24,243 bases of DNA from a virus, in IMG/VR virus record IMGVR_UViG_3300002225_000013, positions 1 to 24,243 of that record; one strand, written 5' to 3'. Position numbers and translations under genes: made by a program. The notes beneath the pieces were generated by a model, which ran no database searches, was not told the origin of the DNA, and was given only the letters and a program-made list of their open reading frames with translations. Shown here in pieces: positions 1,945 through 24,243 of this stretch; position 1 is the stretch's first letter; every line of letters begins with the position of its first letter.

Positions 1945-4044
1945 GTGGACATGGATGAGGAATTTGTAGGCATTTCAACAGTTTATGAGGAAATGTCAAA
2001 ACAGCTTGGCTTGGTTGAGCAGCACCAAAAGCGCCTTGAGTCAAGAGGATTTAGTGATGAAGAAATTGTCCAAGGGGGATACAGCTCATTATCAGCTAGA
2101 AGAAAGACTGTCATTGCCCAATTAGAAAAGCAGAAAGCAAATCTTTCTGGTGTCCCGGGCTTCTGGGTGGACAACAAGAAGCCTAAATTGGCAGGGCAAA
2201 GTGGTCTTTTAATCCCAGTGCGAAACTTCTATAATCAAATTGTTGGCATGAAAATCCGCTCAGATAAAGATAATATCGCAGCAAAATATACCCAATTAAG
2301 CTCCAACCCAAAGCCAGATAAAGAGGGCAACACAAAATACCCGGGTGGCACAGCAGCAAAGACGCACATCCACTATCCTATATTTAAGAAGCCGGATGGA
2401 CCCATCAAAACAGTGCGAATAACAGAGGGTGAATTGAAGGCTGACATTGCCAGCTCCGCTTCTGATGTGTACACAATATCAATCCCGGGTGTCAATATGT
2501 GGCAATGGGCGCTTGATGCCATTGAGCAGCTAGGAGCCACAGAGGTTTATCTGGCATTTGACTCAGACAAAGACAAAGAATTTTCATCATCAACCCCTCA
2601 AGCCAAGCAGCCATTTGAAGTTGCGCGGGCGCTTGCCTCCTTATATATGGGAGCAAAAGAGAAGGGCTATGACACCAAGATTGAACACTGGGATGGTGAA
2701 TATGGAAAGGGCATTGATGATGTTCTTGTTGGAGGCCACAGCGACAAAATAAGATTTATGACTGATGACGAGTGCAACCAGTTTTGTGCAAAAGCCCTCA
2801 AGGGCAAGATGCCACTGGAATGGCTCTATATAATTGGCACCAAGCGCTTCATCAACCCAAGGACATTCCAAGAGCTAGACAAAGAGCAATTTTCTGATAA
2901 GTTCGCACCAGACTTCAAAAAGGAAAAGGCTGCTGATGCTGTGATTAAGCACCCCGGCTTTCCCAAAGTTGACAATCCTATTTATCTGCCCGGTCAACCA
3001 CCATTGATAGAAAGGGGAGAGCTTAAGCACTTCAATTTCTGGACAGATTGTGGAGCCAAGTCTGAAGAGGGTGACATTGATCCATTCACAGCACACGCTG
3101 AGTTGATCCTCCCTGATGAGACAGAGCGCAACATAATGCTCGACTGGATGGCATACAATGTACAACAGCCGGGTAAAAAGATACACTGGGCACTCTTGAT
3201 CCAAGGGGTCCAAGGAACTGGAAAGAGCTTCTTTGGTGAAGCCATGCGGTTGGTGCTGGGAAAGAAGAATGTTTCCAATCCATCCAATGAGGCCATTCAT
3301 GAACCATACACAGGATGGCAGAAGTCTTGCCAACTGGTTGTTGTTGAAGAGATGATGGCCAGAGGCAGACTAGAATTGATGAATAAGCTCAAGCCTATGA
3401 TCACACAGGACATTGCTGTCATCAGAGACATGTACAAGCCAGCATACGAGCAACCAAACTGCTTCAACCTATTCCTATTCACCAACTATAAGGATGCAAT
3501 CATCTTGGATGATGATGACAGGCGCTATGGGGTGCTATTCTCCAGTGCTGTCCCAAAAGATGCGCAGTATTATGAAGAGCTATTTGGTTGGCTTGAGAAG
3601 AATGCTGGCAAGGTGAGAAAGTTCCTAGAGGATAGAGATATATCCAACTTCAAAGCAAAAGGGCATGCCCCAATGACAGAGGGCAAGAAGGTTCTCATTG
3701 GTGAGAGCTTAATGCCTCTGGAACAGTGGATCAGAGATGGCATTGAGGACAGCGCTTGGCCTTTCCATGGGGACTTACTCGCAACAAGGCACTTGATGGG
3801 GTGCTTGCCACACAGGCTTGGCCGGGTGAGTGAGACAATTGTTGCCCGGGCATTAGCTAAGATGGGCTGTCAGAAGGTTGGAAGGGTGAAGTTGAACACT
3901 GATGGCTATGTTAGATTGTGGTCACTAAGGCGGCATGAGATGTATGGGAGTGCTGAGAGCACCTTCTTGGCCAATGAATATGAGAAGTGGTCTGCAGAGA
4001 AAGAGCCGGGTGGAAATCCCCTTAAGGATGCGGAGCCAATTTAG
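1945..4044 (+). CDS. Bifunctional primase (TOPRIM/DUF3854-like) and P-loop helicase
   Basis: A 699-residue replication protein. Residues about 85-120 (GLLIPVRNFYNQIVGMKIR) and the following KYTQLSS phrase match DUF3854-type primase domains. TOPRIM-like acidic residues are E161 (ITEGELKAD) and D206/D208 (LAFDSDKD), followed by GKGIDDVL. The C-terminal ATPase has Walker A GVQGTGKS at 421-428, Walker B LVVVEE at 464-469, a sensor Asn at 514 (FLFTNYKD), and an arginine pair after an Asp run (DDDDRRYG, 522-529), as in DUF5906/SF3-like helicases. It should prime and unwind DNA at the replication fork. Start: GTG at 1945 or ATG at 1951. AAAGGAA (1934-1940) sits 4 and 10 bases upstream respectively, so ATG 1951 is equally possible. 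It is the only rightward gene left of 9586 and is followed by a strong terminator. Confidence 0.92.
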   Translation: MDMDEEFVGISTVYEEMSKQLGLVEQHQKRLESRGFSDEEIVQGGYSSLSARRKTVIAQLEKQKANLSGVPGFWVDNKKPKLAGQSGLLIPVRNFYNQIVGMKIRSDKDNIAAKYTQLSSNPKPDKEGNTKYPGGTAAKTHIHYPIFKKPDGPIKTVRITEGELKADIASSASDVYTISIPGVNMWQWALDAIEQLGATEVYLAFDSDKDKEFSSSTPQAKQPFEVARALASLYMGAKEKGYDTKIEHWDGEYGKGIDDVLVGGHSDKIRFMTDDECNQFCAKALKGKMPLEWLYIIGTKRFINPRTFQELDKEQFSDKFAPDFKKEKAADAVIKHPGFPKVDNPIYLPGQPPLIERGELKHFNFWTDCGAKSEEGDIDPFTAHAELILPDETERNIMLDWMAYNVQQPGKKIHWALLIQGVQGTGKSFFGEAMRLVLGKKNVSNPSNEAIHEPYTGWQKSCQLVVVEEMMARGRLELMNKLKPMITQDIAVIRDMYKPAYEQPNCFNLFLFTNYKDAIILDDDDRRYGVLFSSAVPKDAQYYEELFGWLEKNAGKVRKFLEDRDISNFKAKGHAPMTEGKKVLIGESLMPLEQWIRDGIEDSAWPFHGDLLATRHLMGCLPHRLGRVSETIVARALAKMGCQKVGRVKLNTDGYVRLWSLRRHEMYGSAESTFLANEYEKWSAEKEPGGNPLKDAEPI

Positions 4045-5590: not shown

Positions 5591-6734
5591 TGTCCAAGCC
5601 CTCTCCATCAGTGTATTCCACCTCAATGCAGGCAAGGCGATTATGCCCAAGAGCTGCATCAGCCAAAGCCTTTGTTGGGTGGCGATAGCAAAAAGCCTTA
5701 TACACATTCAACCAAATGGTTGTTTTCTCTGGTGGGGTGTTGATCAAGTCTGTTGGCTTCTCACCAACATCCGCTTCCAAGTATTTGCCCTCAGATGTAT
5801 AGGTGCGGATATCTTCATCACCATCACCATACATGACTACTGCCACAATTGGATAATGCCCACCAGCCTTATAAGTTGTGATTATCCTTGCTGCAATTCC
5901 CGCTCTGGTTTGAACAGGCTTTGTTGGGTCAAAGGTTGGAGTTGCCTCTTTAGGTGTCTCTTCAGAAGTTTTAGCCTTAACCTGTACAGCAAATAGATTT
6001 GACAGTGCGTCAACTGCTGTGTCCATCGGGAGAGGGTTCTTTTCATTATTGATGGCTGTTAACACACCTTCCATGGCGCCTTCAATTGACCAGCAATAGT
6101 CCCAGTAGCCATGGTTTATCTCAATAAAGTTGTCACTGTATTTCCCAAGAGGGTCCATTCCTGCATCTGAGTTGGCAATTCTCCACCCACTCTTTGCGCC
6201 ATCAAACAGCACAATTGCGCCATCTTCTGCTTTTGCCATAATTGGAAAAGACAAATCTTCAATTGCTGTCTCACTAAGGGGCTTTGGCTTCACAGCCTCC
6301 GCACTTACATTTAGATTGATTGTTCCAGTAGTCATTTTAGTTCCTTTCTTAGTTCCGTTTTTGATTTTAATGTTGTTTATAGTTCGCCTTATGGCTTCGC
6401 GTTGCTCTGGGGTAATTGTTGATGGCTTATTCAAGTTGTTCAACACCTCTTTTGGTGGAGGGCAAAGGCCATCCCTATTCTTAATTAGATACTCACCAGA
6501 GGCAAGGGGTTGCCCCGCCTTTCTAAATGCTTGTTCCATCTCAATCATGGCATCAGCAAATGCCCGGTCTGTTGCCTTCCATGCCTTGGCCAAGTCATTA
6601 GCCTGCATGCGCTTCATTGCCCTTACAGCAGCAATTTTCATCTCTTCCCGGGCTTTCTTGGTTGCTCTTCTGTGCTTCAATTCCTTGAATATCCACTTGA
6701 GCTCAGAGATTGTGTGTTTCCAATATGATCTCAC
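5580..6734 (-). CDS. Long phage hypothetical protein, possibly two in-frame products
   Basis: An uninterrupted 384-codon frame with two unlike halves. Residues 1-133 are basic and helical (ELKHRRATKKAREEMK, ALAKAWKATDRAFADAMIEMEQ-like) and end in the Lys-rich GTKKGTK. Residues 134-384 start at an internal ATG (6335) preceded by AAAGGAA at 6-base spacing, and read as a separate phage protein: FPIMAKAEDGAIVLFDG, WDYCWSIEGAMEGVL, then ARIITTYKAGGHYPIVAVV with DIRTYTSEGKY, a phrase widespread in small phage proteins near replication or accessory genes. I see no stop between the halves. Either a natural fusion or full-length plus short product from one frame is possible. It overlaps the next gene by 4 bp (ATGA) and the holin-like gene by 11 bp. 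Function unknown. Confidence 0.75.
   Translation of the reverse strand: MRSYWKHTISELKWIFKELKHRRATKKAREEMKIAAVRAMKRMQANDLAKAWKATDRAFADAMIEMEQAFRKAGQPLASGEYLIKNRDGLCPPPKEVLNNLNKPSTITPEQREAIRRTINNIKIKNGTKKGTKMTTGTINLNVSAEAVKPKPLSETAIEDLSFPIMAKAEDGAIVLFDGAKSGWRIANSDAGMDPLGKYSDNFIEINHGYWDYCWSIEGAMEGVLTAINNEKNPLPMDTAVDALSNLFAVQVKAKTSEETPKEATPTFDPTKPVQTRAGIAARIITTYKAGGHYPIVAVVMYGDGDEDIRTYTSEGKYLEADVGEKPTDLINTPPEKTTIWLNVYKAFCYRHPTKALADAALGHNRLACIEVEYTDGEGLDNVE
6333..6347 (-). promoter_or_regulatory. Internal in-frame ribosome site and ATG
   Basis: AAAGGAA (6341-6347, minus strand) is followed, after ACTAA-type spacing, by an ATG at 6335 within the 384-codon frame. It would yield a 251-residue product (5580-6335) beginning MTTGTINLNV, where the protein changes character from basic-helical to mixed alpha/beta. 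Confidence 0.55.
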
Positions 6735-7417
6735 TTTTTAATTCCCTTCTTCCATGCAAGCATAAGGATTTTCTCTGTCAATTCTGGGCTTCCATTCCAA
6801 TAGAATAGATGCATCAAATCCCAATTGCGCTCCTTAACATAGCCCATGCAGATTTTGGCATCACAATTTTGCGCAAGGCGGTGGATTGATCTGGATGAAA
6901 TTCGACTGAGGCCAAGATATAAGCGGTCAAAGCGCCTCATCAACCTAGCAAGCCTGTCAGCCTCCCAATAGTCATGGCGCTCACGCAGGGCATTGTACTT
7001 GTGGAGGGCTTTCCCTAGCTCAAGAGGCATGTTGTGAAGGTTCAATACAGCAGAGGCTGTGGTGATTTCCTTCCATGCCATCTTAGGCTCTTCTTCAATC
7101 AGATTGATGCCAGCAAAATCACTGTCAGTCCTTGCCCAAAATCTATAGATGTGATCTATCCCATCAAGACCACCCTCAGATGACACCTCTGACTTGTGAG
7201 GGAAGAGAATGACCTGTGGCTCACTGTCAATCTTAACAGTGATTTCATGAGGCACTTCTTGGTGGCGCACTGCCAGCTGTTTTGCCATTGGGATAGAGGA
7301 AATCTCAATTGACCCACAAGCAGACACACTGGCATCTGCACACCTTAAGTCATTAACTGATTGGCCATCTTCATAGGCTATATCAATTGTCACCAGTGAT
7401 GCTTTAATCATTGTCAT
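6731..7417 (-). CDS. Hypothetical phage protein
   Basis: 228 residues, unrecognised. Start ATG 7417 has GGAG 7 bases upstream. The first half is beta-like (SLVTIDIAYEDGQSVN, ITVKIDSEPQVILFP) and Ser/Glu rich. The second half is helical, with many charged and aromatic residues (RERHDYWEADRLARLMRRFDRLYLGL, KERNWDLMHLFYWNGSPEL) and ends in a basic tail KKGIKK. It overlaps the upstream gene by 14 bp and the downstream by 4 bp, so it belongs to a coupled operon. No catalytic motif, signal peptide or membrane span is apparent. Confidence 0.7.
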   Translation of the reverse strand: MTMIKASLVTIDIAYEDGQSVNDLRCADASVSACGSIEISSIPMAKQLAVRHQEVPHEITVKIDSEPQVILFPHKSEVSSEGGLDGIDHIYRFWARTDSDFAGINLIEEEPKMAWKEITTASAVLNLHNMPLELGKALHKYNALRERHDYWEADRLARLMRRFDRLYLGLSRISSRSIHRLAQNCDAKICMGYVKERNWDLMHLFYWNGSPELTEKILMLAWKKGIKK

Positions 7418-8112: not shown

Positions 8113-8715
8113 TTATCCTCTCTCATCTTTTGTTAGCATCTTGCCACCACAGCATGGGCAGGCAGGACGCGCCATGTTGAAACACTCTAGGGTGGTCTTG
8201 ATATAATAGTCATCAACAGGGCAGCGAAGGTTGACACTGGCTTTCCATGGCTGCTTCTTCTTAGGGCTTCCCTGCCCACCTGCATTAAGGCTCTTGTGTG
8301 GATAAGGGGGCATGCGCTTGAGGATTTTGGTGAGGATGCTCTTGAACTTCTCTCCCTCAGTGGTTGCTGTCATCTTACCTTCTAAGCCGATTGCTAGAGC
8401 TATTTTCTTGAACTCTTTGCCGTGACCAAAGCCAGAGCCTAGAGTGGCGTGGATCATCTCATGGGCTAGGATGCCCGCAACGCGCATTGGCTCTGCTTGG
8501 TTAGGCTTGATGAATATCTCTGGGCGCTTGGCCTCACTGGCTTCCTTATACCAACACTCACCAATGGCTGCGCCTCTTCCTCCAGAGGAAGTGAAGCCGC
8601 AACTGATTGCGATGTCAGCCGGGACATCAACATTGGCCTCCTTCTTAAAGAGGGATTTCTTCATGTGGTTGGCTAGACGGTTCAGCCACTCTTCTCTTGT
8701 GATTTTCTTAGGCAT
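8113..8715 (-). CDS. SprT-like zinc metalloprotease
   Basis: 200 residues, start ATG 8715 with GGGAG upstream and 8 bp overlap with the preceding stop. The zinc-protease motif HEMIH is at 85-89 with E86 as catalytic base, and a third likely ligand H98 sits in GFGHGKEF, the HExxH...H arrangement of SprT/Spartan-type proteins. A C-terminal cysteine cluster (C165, C178, C186, C188, C189 in ACPCCGGKM) looks like a zinc ribbon. Cellular relatives cleave DNA-protein crosslinks (Spartan). Phage members are common, but their targets are unknown. It is part of the coupled leftward operon. Confidence in the fold is high; the role (host takeover, DNA repair, regulation) is not shown by the sequence. Confidence 0.88.
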   Translation of the reverse strand: MPKKITREEWLNRLANHMKKSLFKKEANVDVPADIAISCGFTSSGGRGAAIGECWYKEASEAKRPEIFIKPNQAEPMRVAGILAHEMIHATLGSGFGHGKEFKKIALAIGLEGKMTATTEGEKFKSILTKILKRMPPYPHKSLNAGGQGSPKKKQPWKASVNLRCPVDDYYIKTTLECFNMARPACPCCGGKMLTKDERG

Positions 8716-8950
8716 TCACTTTCTCCCAATAAGCCCACTCACTGAGTGCGTCTTTTGCTTCTTCAAAATATGGCATCAGGCACTCAACAACAAAGTCCCA
8801 CTCAAAGTCCTTTATCCAGCACCCAAGGAAGTTTTCAAAATCTTCCATAAGGCTGTCAATTGTGGTTGTAGGTTCCCACTGGTAATCCTTAATGATTAGG
8901 AGTTCCACCACTTTATTTTCAATTGTGAGTTCTTGATCAGGGGTTAGCAT
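8708..8950 (-). CDS. Small acidic hypothetical protein, first gene of leftward operon
   Basis: 80 residues from ATG 8950, preceded by AAGGAATTAAAGAG. An upstream in-frame start (9055) would add an AT-rich, unlikely N-terminus and enter the control region. The protein is acidic and aromatic (SLMEDFENFLGCWIKDFEWDFVVECLMPYFEEAKDAL-like), ending in WAYWEKVNA. It could be a small inhibitor or DNA-mimic type protein by charge alone, but that is speculation; no family is recognised. Being promoter-proximal in the leftward operon, it would be among the first proteins made from it. Confidence 0.66.
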   Translation of the reverse strand: MLTPDQELTIENKVVELLIIKDYQWEPTTTIDSLMEDFENFLGCWIKDFEWDFVVECLMPYFEEAKDALSEWAYWEKVNA

Positions 8951-9076
8951 CTCTTTAATTCCTTTATTTGCTTTTGTTAATTTGTTATCGCTTATTATTG
9001 ACCAGAGGGCAAGAACTTTGTTGGTCAAAAATGGTGAAAATGCGAGATAGTTCAAATGTTACTTATTTGAGGTGAT

Positions 9077-9168
9077 ATGAGTAATTATATTACAAGATTA
9101 AAAGTTATGGATTTTGGAAAATGTGTAATAAAGGGTCTGTTTTGGGTTGTAGATGAGTAATTATATTA
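9077..9168. repeat. 16-bp direct repeat pair ATGAGTAATTATATTA
   Basis: Exact copies at 9077-9092 and 9153-9168, 76 bp apart. The core TAATTATATTA is nearly palindromic and reads TATAAT on the minus strand. The right copy forms the spacer of the leftward promoter at 9146-9174. The left copy lacks a matching -35 box, so the repeat is more likely a protein-binding site than two promoters. Confidence 0.75.
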
Positions 9169-9174
9169 TGTCAA
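9146..9174 (-). promoter_or_regulatory. Leftward sigma70-type promoter
   Basis: On the minus strand a perfect TTGACA (-35, 9174-9169) is followed after 17 bp by TACAAC (-10, 9151-9146). It would drive the leftward operon from 8950 with an approximately 190-nt leader. Its -35 box lies 12 bp from the first ACCGGGT repeat (9186), so a repeat-binding protein would sit at an activator-like position. The -10 box matches at 4 of 6 positions only. Confidence 0.55.
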
Positions 9175-9249
9175 GGGAGAGTGGGACCGGGTTCAGACCG
9201 GGTTGTCACCGGGTTTGTGTGAAAAAATAGTTGTGTGATTTCAAGGGCT

Positions 9250-9381
9250 TCACCGGGTAGACCGGGTAGACCGGGTTTTTTAAGGAAAGTGTATATAGTA
9301 TGTAAATAGGGGAGGGTAAATATAGGGGGTAATATAGGGGGAGAGAAAAGGTTTGCCATGAAAACCCGGTCTACCCGGTGA
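9250..9381. repeat. Perfect 18-19 bp inverted repeat arms around G-tracts
   Basis: TCACCGGGTAGACCGGGT (9250-9267) is the exact reverse complement of 9364-9381. A shifted register pairs 9261-9279 with 9361-9379 over 19 bp. About 82-96 bp lie between the arms. The two possible registers come from the third 9-bp unit present only in the left arm, suggesting unit gain or loss. It could form a cruciform or a looped protein complex. Confidence 0.85.
9309..9341 (+). other. G-tract block with quadruplex potential
   Basis: Runs of G at 9309-9312, 9314-9316, 9325-9329 and 9337-9341, separated by 1, 8 and 7 bases, with TATAGGGGG directly repeated (9321-9329, 9333-9341). One loop is slightly longer than the usual 7-base limit. 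The block lies at the centre of the inverted-repeat array. Confidence 0.6.
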
Positions 9382-9519
9382 GATTTTGGAAAATGGCTTG
9401 CAACTACTTGTTTTTGTTGAGTAAAATACAGACCGGGTTTGAGTGGTTAAACCCGGTCTAAGCCGGTCTGAACCCGGTCTTGGGTTTATTGGTGTGAATT
9501 GGGGGTGCACACATCTGGC

Positions 9520-9548
9520 TTGACGATTGATGCTGCGGCAGATAAAAT
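9520..9548 (+). promoter_or_regulatory. Rightward (late) sigma70-type promoter
   Basis: TTGACG (9520-9525), 17-bp spacer, TAAAAT (9543-9548): 5 of 6 matches in each box at ideal spacing. Transcription would begin near 9555, about 30 bp before the small terminase gene. The inverted ACCCGGT triple ends 41 bp upstream of the -35, a position from which a bound activator could act. Confidence 0.72.
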
Positions 9549-9585
9549 CTGAGCACTCACAAAAACTCAAATTGAATGGACAAAA

Positions 9586-10212
9586 ATGGCCAGCAAGAAA
9601 ACAGCATCAGGCGTTCCGGGCACAGAGAGCCATCAAGATAAAGCGGGTGTCATCAGATCAGCCCCCAAAAGAGAAATTAAAAAGCCGCCAAGCAAGACAG
9701 GCAGGAAGGTTGGGAGGCCCAAGGGCAAGAAGAATAGAACAGCCAGCCAGATTGAGGCTGACAAGAACCGTAAGGCTGGAGTGTTAAAGCACAAGGCCAC
9801 TTTAGCTGCTAAAGATCGGATGGCAGCGAGTGAGGCGCTTGATGAATTAGGATTTGACCCTCTCAAGTTTGCTGTTGATGTGGCCATGGGAAAAGAGCTA
9901 AAGATCAATCACCCATTCTTAAAGGTAATCAATGGCCGTGTGAAGCAGTGGCAGCAGAGAGCTGAGAAAGGCATGGCCTTTGACCCTGCTGAGTTTGAAG
10001 AGTTCATGGCCATGGCTGTTAAGAGCCTTGGAGACTCATGGACGCCAATTGACTTGAGGAATAGGAATGCACTTGAGTTGATCAAGTACATTCACCCCCA
10101 GCTTAAGAGCCAAGACATCAATATGGGTGGGGCTATGGGCATAGCGGTGGTCACTCCATTGTGCAGAGAAGAGATAGAGTTGTTTGATAAGTGGTTTGGG
10201 GAGAATTACTAA
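9586..10212 (+). CDS. terS: Putative terminase small subunit
   Basis: 208 residues. The N-terminal 60 residues are very basic and disordered (SKTGRKVGRPKGKKNRTAS), with an AT-hook-like GRPKGKK, fitting a DNA-binding arm. Then come helices (ASEALDELGFDPLKFAVDVAMGKEL and INGRVKQWQQRAEKGMAFD) and the phrase LRNRNALELIKYIHPQLKSQD, typical of 'K.hP.lks.e' in terminase small subunits that recognise packaging sites. Position supports this: it is the first gene of the late operon and its TAA overlaps the ATG of the large terminase by one base. The ribosome site is weak (GAATGGAC). Not proven by a diagnostic motif; identity rests on context and general character. Confidence 0.75.
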   Translation: MASKKTASGVPGTESHQDKAGVIRSAPKREIKKPPSKTGRKVGRPKGKKNRTASQIEADKNRKAGVLKHKATLAAKDRMAASEALDELGFDPLKFAVDVAMGKELKINHPFLKVINGRVKQWQQRAEKGMAFDPAEFEEFMAMAVKSLGDSWTPIDLRNRNALELIKYIHPQLKSQDINMGGAMGIAVVTPLCREEIELFDKWFGENY

Positions 10213-20531: not shown

Positions 20532-21071
20532 ATGGCAAATAAGTATGAAGGAGAAGAGACTGTTGAGGTAGGCAAAGATGTCTACCTCTGCAAAGTTGAC
20601 TTCAGATTTCTTGTAGAGCTAAAGGAGATGGCTGGGATGGACCCGGCTGCAATCTTTACCAATTTGAATTCTGGCGATTGTGACCCAGACCAAATCAAAT
20701 CTGTGGTTGTCTGCGCACTTAGGTCTGAAAATGGAAAGAGCATTGAGGCTGAAGAGGAAAAGAAGGATATTGCAGAAAACATAATTGCAGGCTATGGCCT
20801 TCAAGAGTGTTGGCTCCTATCCCAGCACCTTCTCAGCTATGCTATGATAGGTGAAATTTCAAAGATGAAGCTCCAGTCACTGGACAGGAAAAGGAAGTTT
20901 CTGGAGCTGGTTTCACCTTTCCAATCAGAGAATTTGAAAAATCTGCTATTGCTATGGGGGTGGCACCTGTTGATTTTTGGCCTCTCTGCATGTTTCAGTT
21001 TCAGTCTATTCGTTTGGCTCATCTCCAAAAACACGGACTTCGCCCTGATGGTTCAAGCGCTGGTACAATGA
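20532..21071 (+). CDS. Tail assembly chaperone, unshifted product
   Basis: Zero-frame product of 179 residues. Residues 1-111 (YLCKVDFRFLVELKEMAGMD, IKSVVVCALRSENGKSIEAEE, LQECWLLSQHLLSYAMIGEISK) look like the N-terminal domain of GTA-type/lambda G-like tail chaperones, encoded between tail tube and tape measure. After codon 111 the zero frame becomes unlike a phage protein, with a run NLLLLWGWHLLIFGLSACFSF, because the better coding frame has shifted to -1. The hydrophobic tail is therefore probably a by-product, though it stays open for 68 codons. No clear ribosome site is seen before ATG 20532. Confidence 0.8.
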   Translation: MANKYEGEETVEVGKDVYLCKVDFRFLVELKEMAGMDPAAIFTNLNSGDCDPDQIKSVVVCALRSENGKSIEAEEEKKDIAENIIAGYGLQECWLLSQHLLSYAMIGEISKMKLQSLDRKRKFLELVSPFQSENLKNLLLLWGWHLLIFGLSACFSFSLFVWLISKNTDFALMVQALVQ

Positions 21072-21139
21072 CCCTTGCTGACTTAAACGAGTTGAGGAAG
21101 GGAGTGAGAGAGGCAGAGGCAAAGAAGAATGGCACTTAA
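20532..21139 (+). CDS. Tail assembly chaperone, -1 frameshift fusion (G-T type)
   Basis: Proposed join of 20532-20864 and 20864-21139: 111 residues from frame 0, then 91 from frame -1, 202 in total. After the slip the product reads DEAPVTGQEKEVSGAG, then FPIREFEKSAIAMGVAPVDFW, i.e. the 'AI.mGV.P.dFW' phrase of tail chaperone C-termini, and ends LADLNELRKGVREAEAKKNGT. The -1 frame shows many codons starting with G and ending in T or A like its neighbours. It is closed upstream by TGA at 20852-20854, so the shift must occur after that. The -1 frame ends 11 bp inside the tape measure gene. The short and long forms should coat the tape measure during tail assembly. A natural or sequencing 1-base indel is the alternative. 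Confidence 0.75.
20849..20884 (+). promoter_or_regulatory. Predicted programmed -1 frameshift element
   Basis: AGGTGA (20849-20854) is an SD-like stimulator about 7 bases before the slip site. A_AAG (20861-20864) lets Lys-tRNA move from AAG to AAA. After a 7-nt spacer, TCCAG (20872-20876) pairs with CTGGA (20880-20884) across loop TCA. The -1 frame stop at 20852 and the change in coding character bracket this point. Confidence 0.68.
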
Positions 21140-23375
21140 AGTTGGAACGCTTCAATATGATATAGATGTTGACACAAGAGGCCTTAATAAGGCAGTGTCT
21201 TCAACTAACAGGTTGTTCAGTCGCCTTGGTCGCACCATTGCTGCTGCTCTATCATTTGAAGCTGCCCGGCGCACCGTTCTCCTAGCTGAGAAAATGACCC
21301 TGTTGGATGTTCGCATCAAGAATGTGACAAAGTCCACCAAGGAATTTACAAAGTCTCAACAAGAGCTAATTCGCACAGCCAATAGCACTGGCCAATCATT
21401 CCAAGCAACTGTCCAGTTGTTTGAGCGCCTTAAGATTGCCTCCAAAGATATTGGAGCAAGCAATGACCAAGTTTTGAGACTCACTGAGACAGTCCAAAAG
21501 CTTGGTGTTGTTGGTGGTTCATCTGTTGATGAGATGAAGTTCTCCCTTCGCCAGTTCTCCCAAGCAATGGCAGAGGGTCTTGTGCGTGCGCAAGAATTTA
21601 ACTCCATTGTTGAGAACACCCCATTCATCATGGATGCCATTGCTGACTCTATGGGTGTATCAATTGGCCAGCTTCGCCAAATGTCCAGAGAGGGCAAGCT
21701 TCTCTCCAAGGATGTATTCAACGCACTTCTAGCAAAGCAGGATGAGGTTGTTGAGCGCTTTGAGAAATTCCCTTTGACAACTTCACGTGCCATGCAGGCA
21801 ATTGAGAATAACTTTGGCCAAGCAATCAAGAAGATCAATGATGAAATTGAGGCTTCTCCCCCTCTTGCTAAGTTCTTTCAAGAAATGGCAAACAAAATCC
21901 CTAAGTGGGGCAATGATTTCTTGCGGGCAATCAACACAGTTCAAGCTGGTTGGGTTGTTCTCACTGCTACCTTTGAGGCCAAGTGGGATATTATGCTCCA
22001 AAGGCTATCGCTGGCTTGGGATCAGTTCAAAGGGGCCTTTACATCTGGTGGAGCTGACATTGAATTCTCTTGGGAAATCCTAACCAAGACAATTGGCTTT
22101 CTTTGGTCTAAGGCCTTGGACACAATGGAGCTTACATATGCCAAGTTCATAGCTGGTGTTGCTGAGGTTGCTGATGCCACCGGGTTTGATGACATAGCTG
22201 AGTCACTTAGAGGGACAGCTAAAGAGTTCCTTGGTGCATCCCATGATGCCAAAGCCTTAAAGACTGAAATTGAAGGCCTTGTTGTATCTAATAATAAAAG
22301 GAAAGAGGCAGAGGCCAATGCCAATGAGGAGCGCATTGCAGCTCACAAAAAGGCAGTGGCTGAAATCCTTGAGAAGAAGAAAACAGCGATTGGTGCTGCT
22401 GCTGAAGAGCTTGATGCTGATCTAGCGCGCATTAATGCTGTAGAAGAGGCAGAACGCAAGGCCCGGGAAGCCAAATTGCCGGGGGGTCTTGTTGAGGATA
22501 AGCAAGCCCCTTCTGTTGATGGGATAGAGGTAAATGCTGGCGTGACAGGAAGCATAGAGCAGTTGATGGCTGATATGGGCAATGAGACTCAAGCAATTCT
22601 CAACGCCTTAAGAGAACGCAACAAGAAAATCCTTGATGCCACAGAAGAAGGTGAGACAGCTAGAGAGGATTTGATCAGAGAGAGCCGGAAAAAATTCAAC
22701 AGAGACATGTTGGCATTTGAAAAGCAAAATGCGATTATGGGCCTTCAACAGATTGGAAGCTTTCTGGATCAACTGGTTGGTGTTCTGGCTGCTGGCGGCA
22801 AGAAGCAAAATGCCCTTTACAAAGGATTGTTCTTGGCCATGAAAGCTATCCAAGTGGCAACCATTATTGCTGAGACTGAGGTTGGCGCTGCCAAGGCAAT
22901 TGGCCTCATGGGTCCGTTTGGGCTTCCTCTAGCCAATGTCATTAGAGCATCCGGGTATGCATCTGCTGGCTTAGTGGCTGGCCTAGCCATTGGAGACACT
23001 TTCTCAGGCGGTGGCAGGGTTTCTGGCGGTGATGTGTTTGCTGGCGCAATGCACCCAGTCAATGAGAATGGAAATCCAGAAATACTTGTGCAGGGTGGGA
23101 GGCAATTCCTCTTGCCGGGCAGTAGTGGTGGCAAGATTGTTCCAACAGGGGGCACAGGGATGGGTGGGAGCGCGCCCTCCATCACAATTAACAACAATGG
23201 TCCAGCAATTGATGTGGAAAGCTCTAGGATGTCAGATGGCGAGATTGTCTTGGCAATTAAGGCAGCAGAAGATACTGCAGTGAGCAGAGTGGATACAAGC
23301 CTTGCCTCTCAAAGAGGTTCAACTTATAAATCCTTGAGAGAGGGTGCTGATGTGGGGAGAAATATCCGTGGCTGA
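21129..23375 (+). CDS. Tail tape measure protein
   Basis: 748 residues. N-terminal VGTLQYDIDVDTRGLNKAV and FRSxxGxx-like FSRLGRTIAAALSFEAARR begin the tape-measure N-domain; TGQSFQATVQLFERL, SVDEMKFSLRQFSQAMAEGLV, RAQEFNSIVENTPFIMDAI and LRQMSREGKLLSKDVFNAL are typical of the TMP_3-type family. Residues about 377-450 form a charged coiled coil. About 534-625 are hydrophobic and Gly-rich, likely membrane-active during DNA entry; the end has ITINNNGPAIDV. At about 0.15 nm per residue the tail would be near 110 nm. No lytic transglycosylase or peptidase domain is seen. Overlaps the next gene by 8 bp. Confidence 0.94.
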   Translation: MALKVGTLQYDIDVDTRGLNKAVSSTNRLFSRLGRTIAAALSFEAARRTVLLAEKMTLLDVRIKNVTKSTKEFTKSQQELIRTANSTGQSFQATVQLFERLKIASKDIGASNDQVLRLTETVQKLGVVGGSSVDEMKFSLRQFSQAMAEGLVRAQEFNSIVENTPFIMDAIADSMGVSIGQLRQMSREGKLLSKDVFNALLAKQDEVVERFEKFPLTTSRAMQAIENNFGQAIKKINDEIEASPPLAKFFQEMANKIPKWGNDFLRAINTVQAGWVVLTATFEAKWDIMLQRLSLAWDQFKGAFTSGGADIEFSWEILTKTIGFLWSKALDTMELTYAKFIAGVAEVADATGFDDIAESLRGTAKEFLGASHDAKALKTEIEGLVVSNNKRKEAEANANEERIAAHKKAVAEILEKKKTAIGAAAEELDADLARINAVEEAERKAREAKLPGGLVEDKQAPSVDGIEVNAGVTGSIEQLMADMGNETQAILNALRERNKKILDATEEGETAREDLIRESRKKFNRDMLAFEKQNAIMGLQQIGSFLDQLVGVLAAGGKKQNALYKGLFLAMKAIQVATIIAETEVGAAKAIGLMGPFGLPLANVIRASGYASAGLVAGLAIGDTFSGGGRVSGGDVFAGAMHPVNENGNPEILVQGGRQFLLPGSSGGKIVPTGGTGMGGSAPSITINNNGPAIDVESSRMSDGEIVLAIKAAEDTAVSRVDTSLASQRGSTYKSLREGADVGRNIRG

Positions 23376-23880
23376 ACAATGGCCTAAACTTAACACCGAT
23401 ATTTTGCTTGCTGGGTATAGCCCGGTTGAAAATTCGCACACCCAAAATAACAAGGTTCAATCTGGCGCACTCCGCTTTGAGTTGTTGACGGATGTTGTTC
23501 CAATGAATGCAAAGATCACCCTCAACTTGTCCTCATTTGATTTCCAGTTGTTTGATGGCTGGTTCAAAAAGACAATTGCCTATGGATCAAAATCATTTAT
23601 AGTTCCGCTCAAGGTTGGGATGGGTGTTGTTGATCATGAGTGCTATTTTCTTGGCCCATATGTGCCAAGCCCCATTGGCCAGAGATGGAAAGTTTCAGCC
23701 ACACTGATAGCCATTCAGAAGCAATATAATACGGATGCTGATATTGATCAATTGATGGTGCTGGCTGAGTTGACTGATGACTTGTATAATGATCAATTCT
23801 TTATTGACTTTGATACATTCTTGAATGTCACCCTTCCTGATGCTTGGGAGAATATACAATATGGAACGGATTTTAGTTAA
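23368..23880 (+). CDS. Phage tail protein encoded after the tape measure, distal-tail-like
   Basis: 170 residues from GTG 23368, chosen because GGGGAG (23354-23359) lies 8 bases upstream; starts further left lie inside the tape measure gene. AEQWPKLNTDILLAGYSPVE, GALRFELLTDVVPMNAKITLNL, FDFQLFDGWFKKTI, and HECYFLGPYVPSPIGQRWKVSATL-like fit the family 'WP..L......GYs........R.e...g.....r......' ... 'F..W.......g..wF.v.l......h..rF.g.y....G..W.vsatl'. These small proteins follow the tape measure and may join tube to tip. The last 33 residues carry the module also ending tail tube paralog 1 (TLPDAWENIQYGTDFS). Confidence 0.82.
   Translation: MAEQWPKLNTDILLAGYSPVENSHTQNNKVQSGALRFELLTDVVPMNAKITLNLSSFDFQLFDGWFKKTIAYGSKSFIVPLKVGMGVVDHECYFLGPYVPSPIGQRWKVSATLIAIQKQYNTDADIDQLMVLAELTDDLYNDQFFIDFDTFLNVTLPDAWENIQYGTDFS
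23831..23880 (+). repeat. Shared C-terminal coding module, copy 2
   Basis: 46 of 50 bases are identical to 20031-20080; both copies end a tail gene with the same 15-residue peptide and a stop codon. Confidence 0.9.
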
Positions 23881-24243
23881 TGGCAGTTGATCAAGAAGCT
23901 TGGAATAGGTTTTTGGCCTCAGCACCAGAGGGTGTTAGGGAGTACAGAACTATTGAGCTGAGTCACCCTGAATTCTCTGCTGGCCAACTTCGCTTTGTTA
24001 AGGATTATGTTGATGCTGATCTTGGACTTGAGGCTGATGCCCCAAGAAACCCCGGCGAAGTTGTGACCTTTACAGCAATTGCTATGGATGTCAAAGAGCC
24101 AGATGAAACAGGCGATGCAGAGCAAATCCTTCAAATAAACCTTGGCGCTGTTGGTGGTGAGGTTCAAGATGTTCTAAAGGAGATAACTGCAGCAGGGGTG
24201 CTAACTCCAATCCAAGTAATTTATCGAAAATACTATGGAGGGG
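23880..24243 (+). CDS. Tail protein, DUF1833-like, C-terminus cut by window edge
   Basis: Starts at ATG 23880, sharing one base with the previous stop (TAATG). 121 codons are visible, with no stop before the edge. The reading MAVDQEAWNRFLASAPEG, then IELSHPEFSAGQLRFVKDY, GEVVTFTAIAMDVKEPDE and LQINLGAVGGEVQDVL matches the DUF1833 tail protein layout ('ElsHPaf....rfv.d......l......g....f....f.v..P......p...l.i.nv...i...l'). DUF1833 genes lie downstream of tape measure genes before tail hydrolase and fibre genes. It is likely a tail-tip component; most of the family's core is present. Confidence 0.85.
   Translation, partial: MAVDQEAWNRFLASAPEGVREYRTIELSHPEFSAGQLRFVKDYVDADLGLEADAPRNPGEVVTFTAIAMDVKEPDETGDAEQILQINLGAVGGEVQDVLKEITAAGVLTPIQVIYRKYYGG

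Follow-up and report, generated by a model that had tools for sequence, protein, structure and literature searches.

The window analysed here, the whole 24,243-nt stretch of IMG/VR virus record IMGVR_UViG_3300002225_000013, carries in one intergenic gap an array of twelve ACCGGGT-type heptads that is probably a phage replication origin of the PICI/SaPI iteron kind. Support for the origin reading comes from two comparisons: a twin array lies beside a SaPI5-like initiator helicase, and arrays of other heptads lie downstream of DUF5906 primase-helicase genes. A preliminary description of this DNA had proposed a phage origin or a master operator. The comparisons uphold the origin half of that proposal; for the operator half, the evidence is the position of the array between divergent operons. 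Most tailed-phage replication origins are unmapped.

The ACCGGGT array and the divergent region around it

The elements of the array are listed below, with their counterparts in the twin locus (L122, described in the next section).

9186..9214, + strand: iteron group A, three ACCGGGT at 11-bp spacing (9186, 9197, 9208); twin 5822-5850
9252..9276, + strand: iteron group B, three ACCGGGT at 9-bp spacing (9252, 9261, 9270); twin 5899-5923
9277..9363, no strand: candidate unwinding spacer of 87 bp between the inverted groups B and C, proposed from its AT content
9364..9379, - strand: iteron group C, two inverted ACCGGGT at 9-bp spacing (9364, 9373); twin 5989-6004
9432..9438, + strand: single forward iteron, 19 bp ahead of the inverted outer group; twin 6046, at the equal 19-bp distance
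9451..9478, - strand: outer inverted group, 9451 and 9472 with the variant 9461, at spacings of 10 and 11 bp; twin 6065 and 6075

A recount confirms the eleven exact heptads and one variant first described at 9186-9478, and their grouping. Exact copies run forward at 9186, 9197, 9208, 9252, 9261, 9270 and 9432 and in reverse at 9364, 9373, 9451 and 9472; the variant, ACCGGCT, is in reverse at 9461. The left half had been called mostly forward and the right half mostly inverted, and the counts are 6/6 and 5/6, respectively. Re-measured from site to site, the spacings are 11 and 11 bp, then 44, 9 and 9, 94, 9, 59, and 19, 10 and 11 bp, in agreement with the reported phasing of the outer triples at 10-11 bp and the inner groups at 9 bp. 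The whole window contains 14 ACCGGGT, 11 of them inside the array, where 0.47 would be expected, and none of 100 dinucleotide shuffles reached 14. A scan of the phage genome found no second heptad cluster of comparable size, and no DNA similar to the array was found in the phage collection.

Because the heptad is a near palindrome (ACC-S-GGT), only the central base and the flanks tell its two orientations apart. The flanks are mostly AG before and T after, which supports the orientations originally given. At a larger scale, an inner inverted repeat of 19 nt (9261-9279/9361-9379) matches at 100% and an outer one of 20 nt (9185-9204/9460-9479) at 95%. The spacer between groups B and C is 64% AT against 54% for the locus, a modest difference, intergenic DNA being generally AT-rich. 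It carries TATATAG and four G-runs (GGGG, GGG, GGGGG, GGGGG). The G-runs lie on the + strand at 9309-9345 and could form a G-quadruplex. The spacer of Pseudoxanthomonas phage PW916 likewise has a GTAGGGGGATTAAG stretch.

The same phage is represented by a second IMG/VR record, 3300027834_000011 (44,744 bp). Window positions 1-20973 are identical to the end of that record and 20847-24243 to its start. Its first 127 bases equal its last 127 bases, so the map closes as a circle of 44,617 bp. On this map a rightward block (terS-terL-portal-head-tail-lysis) and a leftward block (DNA polymerase III alpha, helicase, exonuclease, ThyX, SprT-like protease, and others) diverge from a 530-bp gap (9056-9585), in which the array sits and which is the only large divergent region of the phage; several gene names in both blocks were read from the sequence rather than from family matches. 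One gene, encoding the primase-helicase, opposes the leftward block. The features relevant to the array are as follows.

1945..4044, + strand: primase-helicase of 699 aa (DUF3854 + DUF5906), candidate initiator with a predicted C-terminal winged helix; from family matches and a model
8113-8715: SprT-like gene, following the ORF at 8708..9055
8708..9055, - strand: first ORF of the leftward operon, no family; from ORF position, the next gene being SprT-like
9173..9178, - strand: TTGACA, possible -35 of a leftward (early) promoter, 8 bp from the outermost iteron; a perfect -35
9520..9548, + strand: promoter-like TTGACG-17-TAAAAT upstream of terS; 10/12 consensus matches
9586..10212, + strand: putative terminase small subunit, first gene of the rightward operon; from its position before terL, with no family match

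The array had been described as bracketed by outward promoters. Candidate sites are indeed present on both sides, as consensus matches only: four promoter-like sites were found in the region against 1.7 expected. The leftward candidate is weak because the TTGACA at 9178-9173 (-) is paired, at 17-bp spacing, with a poor -10, TACAAC. Left of the array and near this TTGACA is a 16-nt exact direct repeat, ATGAGTAATTATATTA, at 9077-9092 and 9153-9168, possibly a second operator or a duplicated promoter. A GC-skew analysis, which the preliminary description had suggested, does show a switch at the array, with the cumulative minimum near window position 8845 and the maximum at the convergent end of the operons. 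However, the skew follows gene direction, the inverted primase gene included, so it is uninformative on the origin and adds no independent evidence.

Arrays in other elements and beside DUF5906 primase-helicases

No close relative of the window phage was found. A scan of the IMG/VR collection for three ACCGGGT in tandem returned 38 viral contigs. Nearly all of the tandem-ACCGGGT contigs, viral and bacterial, were discarded as 9-bp-phased, probably coding repeats. The twin array is in IMG/VR 2706794555_000001, a 98.7-kb element on Streptacidiphilus carbonis contig NZ_BBPM01000016. It has eleven exact heptads in the order, orientation and within-group spacing of the window array: + + + at 11, + + + at 9, - - at 9, then +, 19, -, 10, -. 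The between-group distances are 55, 72 and 48 in the twin versus 44, 94 and 59 in the window, and the two spacer sequences are unrelated. The twin element is 69% GC against about 45% for the window phage, and BLASTP found no protein in common. Among 2.9 million IMG/VR records, the inverted inner 9-bp pairs occur in these two alone. Matches of the twin array to Streptomyces plasmids were rejected as GGTCCGG-rich coding DNA.

The twin array starts 11 bp after the stop codon of a helicase gene with D5_N, DUF5906 and Pox_D5 domains, whose product matches the SaPI5 primase-helicase (7ola/7om0) with an E value of 6e-11. Its similarity to the window primase is remote (E of 0.015 pairwise and 0.4 by profile), so the shared heptad can be put down to a shared binder only at the level of fold. 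A third ACCGGGT array, with 10-11-bp and 9-bp triples, is present in IMG/VR 3300005678_000060 (1372-1516 of locus L144); it adjoins genes for an AAA_25/RecA/KaiC-type ATPase and a primase-polymerase-like protein, not a D5 helicase. In IMG/VR 3300031993_000066, five ACCGGGT in one orientation (at 23, 11, 11 and 13 bp; locus L145, 6867-6931) precede a tyrosine integrase gene by about 1 kb.

Two-sided arrays of other heptads were found soon after the primase gene in named phages of the DUF5906 type: GAACCGA in Erythrobacter phages R16L and R22L, GGTCCGA in Burkholderia phage AH2, and CTGTCAC in Xanthomonas phage AhaSv and Stenotrophomonas phage Bhz60. The 9-bp triple recurs in AhaSv and Bhz60, and AhaSv also has an inverted exact 9-bp pair. 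In contrast, no clear heptad array was seen in the stretch examined of PW916, RDJL3, BUCT_49532 or phiAxp-2, which are DUF5906 phages as well.

For a broader survey we took IMG/VR loci with AH2-like primases, using the best-scoring 80 of 552 relatives, near-duplicates included, and scored a cluster wherever a heptad occurred six or more times, in mixed orientation, inside 300 bp. This detector was built with the window array already known. Controls were 77 terL loci, which differ from the primase loci in gene content and composition, and shuffles that preserve composition only in 60-base blocks. Mixed-orientation clusters occurred in 29/80 primase loci (best 80 of 552) versus 5/77 terL loci. 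In a slightly different count, 25 of 32 clusters lay between -100 and +1300 bp relative to the primase end, against 3.4 expected; the binomial p for this position overstates the case, since the 80 loci are the best-scoring ones and include near-duplicates. A strict motif modelled on the window array, combining two same-strand copies 8-9 bp apart with an inverted pair at 8-9 bp, was present in six of these best 80 of 552 primase loci. All six lie 226-1287 bp downstream, with six different heptads, and the motif was absent from the terL controls (0/77) and the shuffles (0/785). The spacer between the inverted groups measures about 64-101 bp, and it is AT-richer than its locus in 11/11 arrays compared.

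PW916 shares with the window phage both the domain architecture of the primase and the divergent terS arrangement. Its divergent region upstream of terS (L259, 10652-10789) holds inverted arms of 37 nt that are 81% complementary (30/37 matches, against at most 25 in 20 shuffles) and enclose a 64-nt AT-rich spacer (67% versus 37% AT). This hints that the region upstream of terS can serve as an origin in PW916-like phages. Among terL relatives of the window phage (77 loci of at most 46% identity, named phages included) there was no ACCGGGT array, and a few had other arrays. In Pseudomonas phage KPP23, eight AAACGAA repeats surround an AT-rich stretch of an 865-bp noncoding region (L100, 1456-2320), which makes it a candidate origin of broadly this kind. 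Locus L003 has 22-bp tandem repeats with inverted CTAATAG units at 9054-9130, just downstream of a terL gene. Literature searches, incomplete in coverage, returned no paper on iteron origins in Casjensviridae or DUF5906 phages and, for the ACCGGGT heptad, primer-like and unrelated matches only.

Candidate initiator, proposed mechanism and alternative readings

It had been stated that none of the genes adjoining the array is recognisable as a binder. This holds locally, but the best candidate, the primase-helicase at 1945-4044, is 5.1 kb away. As sole query of the collection, this protein found only its own phage. An alignment with 22 relatives from IMG/VR served to model its C-terminal 424 residues (mean pLDDT 81.5). 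The best structural match is NrS-1 (Z 27.2, rmsd 4.1, 369 residues aligned), the next is the SaPI5 primase-helicase PriRep1 (Z 20, 335-344 aligned, covering model residues 10-381), and D5-like helicases come after it. Model residues 316-385 run helix, strand, helix, helix, strand, strand, the winged-helix order, with pLDDT of about 70-83. The window primase-helicase thus models as a D5-type helicase with a predicted C-terminal winged helix. In SaPI Rep and Cch2 the C-terminal domain binds iterons downstream of the protein's own gene, and the predicted winged helix is placed where these two carry that origin-binding domain (PMC7581432). We infer that it reads ACCGGGT. An alternative binder that we considered, encoded by a small HTH-like gene upstream of some primases, has weak Pfam matches only.

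If the array is an origin, the phage's own D5-type primase-helicase would bind the heptads through its C-terminal winged helix, and a helicase ring would be assembled from each side, on groups B and C. The assembled helicase would then melt the spacer at 9277-9363, and DNA synthesis would start outwards, under the leftward and rightward operons. The outer sites, phased at 10-11 bp, would contribute further binding, cooperative and along one face of the DNA, and may also repress the two divergent promoters.

It is conceivable, if still tentative, that the layout is a fixed plan, with spacings of 11-13 bp in group A, 9 bp in group B and 8-9 bp in the inverted group C, and about 60-100 bp of AT-rich spacer between B and C. 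The heptad would vary by lineage, making winged helix and heptad a matched, predictable pair. If the origin reading is right, origins could be read from sequence in the many phages that encode DUF5906 primase-helicases, and one origin design would be common to phages and satellites, which would bear on the ancestry of PICI replicons and on phage-satellite competition for replication. Such arrays would also offer a test case for the loading of hexameric helicases by iterons of fixed geometry.

The strongest alternative, which we consider unlikely, is a master operator, at which a phage repressor or activator would bind cooperatively and control divergent early (leftward) and late (rightward) promoters. 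The array does lie between two divergent operons, with promoter-like sites within 8 and 42 bp, and since these flank it on both sides, binding may also control both operons. However, the arrays elsewhere follow a helicase gene (in the twin) or primase genes (in other phages) rather than a divergent early/late junction. Moreover, the genes examined and families scanned included no recognisable regulator, and an operator has no need of an AT-rich spacer between inverted pairs. It could also be that this DNA acts both as origin and as operator.

A packaging site (pac/cosB), where TerS would bind repeats beside its own gene to start packaging, is improbable. The array ends 108 bp ahead of the putative terS, and within the terS of L061, a distant relative by terL, there are GGTATCCA repeats in five forward and two inverted copies. 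These repeats (6190-6390, in the gene at 6131-7006) are themselves a candidate pac site. Nevertheless, the twin array is about 41 kb from the terL of its element, and related arrays go with the primase gene; the AH2 array is separated from terS by about 11 kb. The distribution of clusters, 5/77 at terL against 29/80 at primase loci (best 80 of 552), likewise argues against packaging.

More improbable still is a recombination or partition site, either the arms of an integrase attP or a centromere for a ParB/RHH-like protein. Arrays of short direct and inverted sites are typical of such DNA, and the twin element encodes two tyrosine integrases and a serine recombinase. However, the integrases are about 6 kb or more from the twin array, and the arrays track primases. 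In the window phage, the proteins scanned gave no integrase family match, none was apparent on reading the remaining ORFs, and no ParA/ParB gene was seen among its proteins; the array thus lacks the nearby integrase expected of an attP. Finally, a structured RNA formed from the inverted repeats is barely credible: both strands fold far better than shuffles (z of -8.2 and -10.9) and a terminator-like hairpin lies at 9460-9429 (-), but inverted repeats of a single word trivially give such stability, the loops span 80-250 nt, Rfam gave a chance-level match and none at family threshold, and the heptads are kept as words at fixed spacing, direct as well as inverted.

Comparison with known origins

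PICI origins are described as "always" having two iteron sets flanking an AT-rich region (PMC6092414). The window array resembles the PICI/SaPI origins (SaPI5 PriRep1, PDB 7ola/7om0/7pds) in this layout, with six sites on the left mirrored by six on the right and the AT-rich stretch at 9277-9363 between them. A further likeness is the candidate initiator, by fold a predicted D5/SF3-type helicase with a C-terminal DNA-binding domain, on the evidence of DUF5906 and the model. The position differs: PICI origins lie directly 3' of the initiator gene, as the array does in the twin (11 bp) and at many other DUF5906 loci, whereas the window primase-helicase ends at 4044 and the array starts at 9186, 5.1 kb on. 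The window array would work like a PICI origin, and strict membership in that class fails on position here but not in the twin or many other phages. Two further differences are that it belongs to a full-size, apparently lytic tailed phage rather than a satellite, and that it consists of twelve heptads in 9-bp and 10-11-bp groups on a fixed plan.

The SCCmec Cch2 origin is similar in that a D5-family helicase binds short direct repeats through its C-terminal domain, but it has only three 5-nt iterons and no two-sided array (PMC7581432). The phage P4 alpha protein is mentioned with its cognate origin in PMC6092414. Like the candidate initiator proposed here, alpha has origin recognition, helicase and primase in one protein. 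The P4 origin has short iterons in both orientations, although iteron and layout differ from those of the window array. The closest solved relative of the C-terminal region of the window primase is the NrS-1 primase-polymerase-helicase (PDB 6k9c), which has a Primpol domain at its N terminus (PMC9611036), where the window protein has DUF3854.
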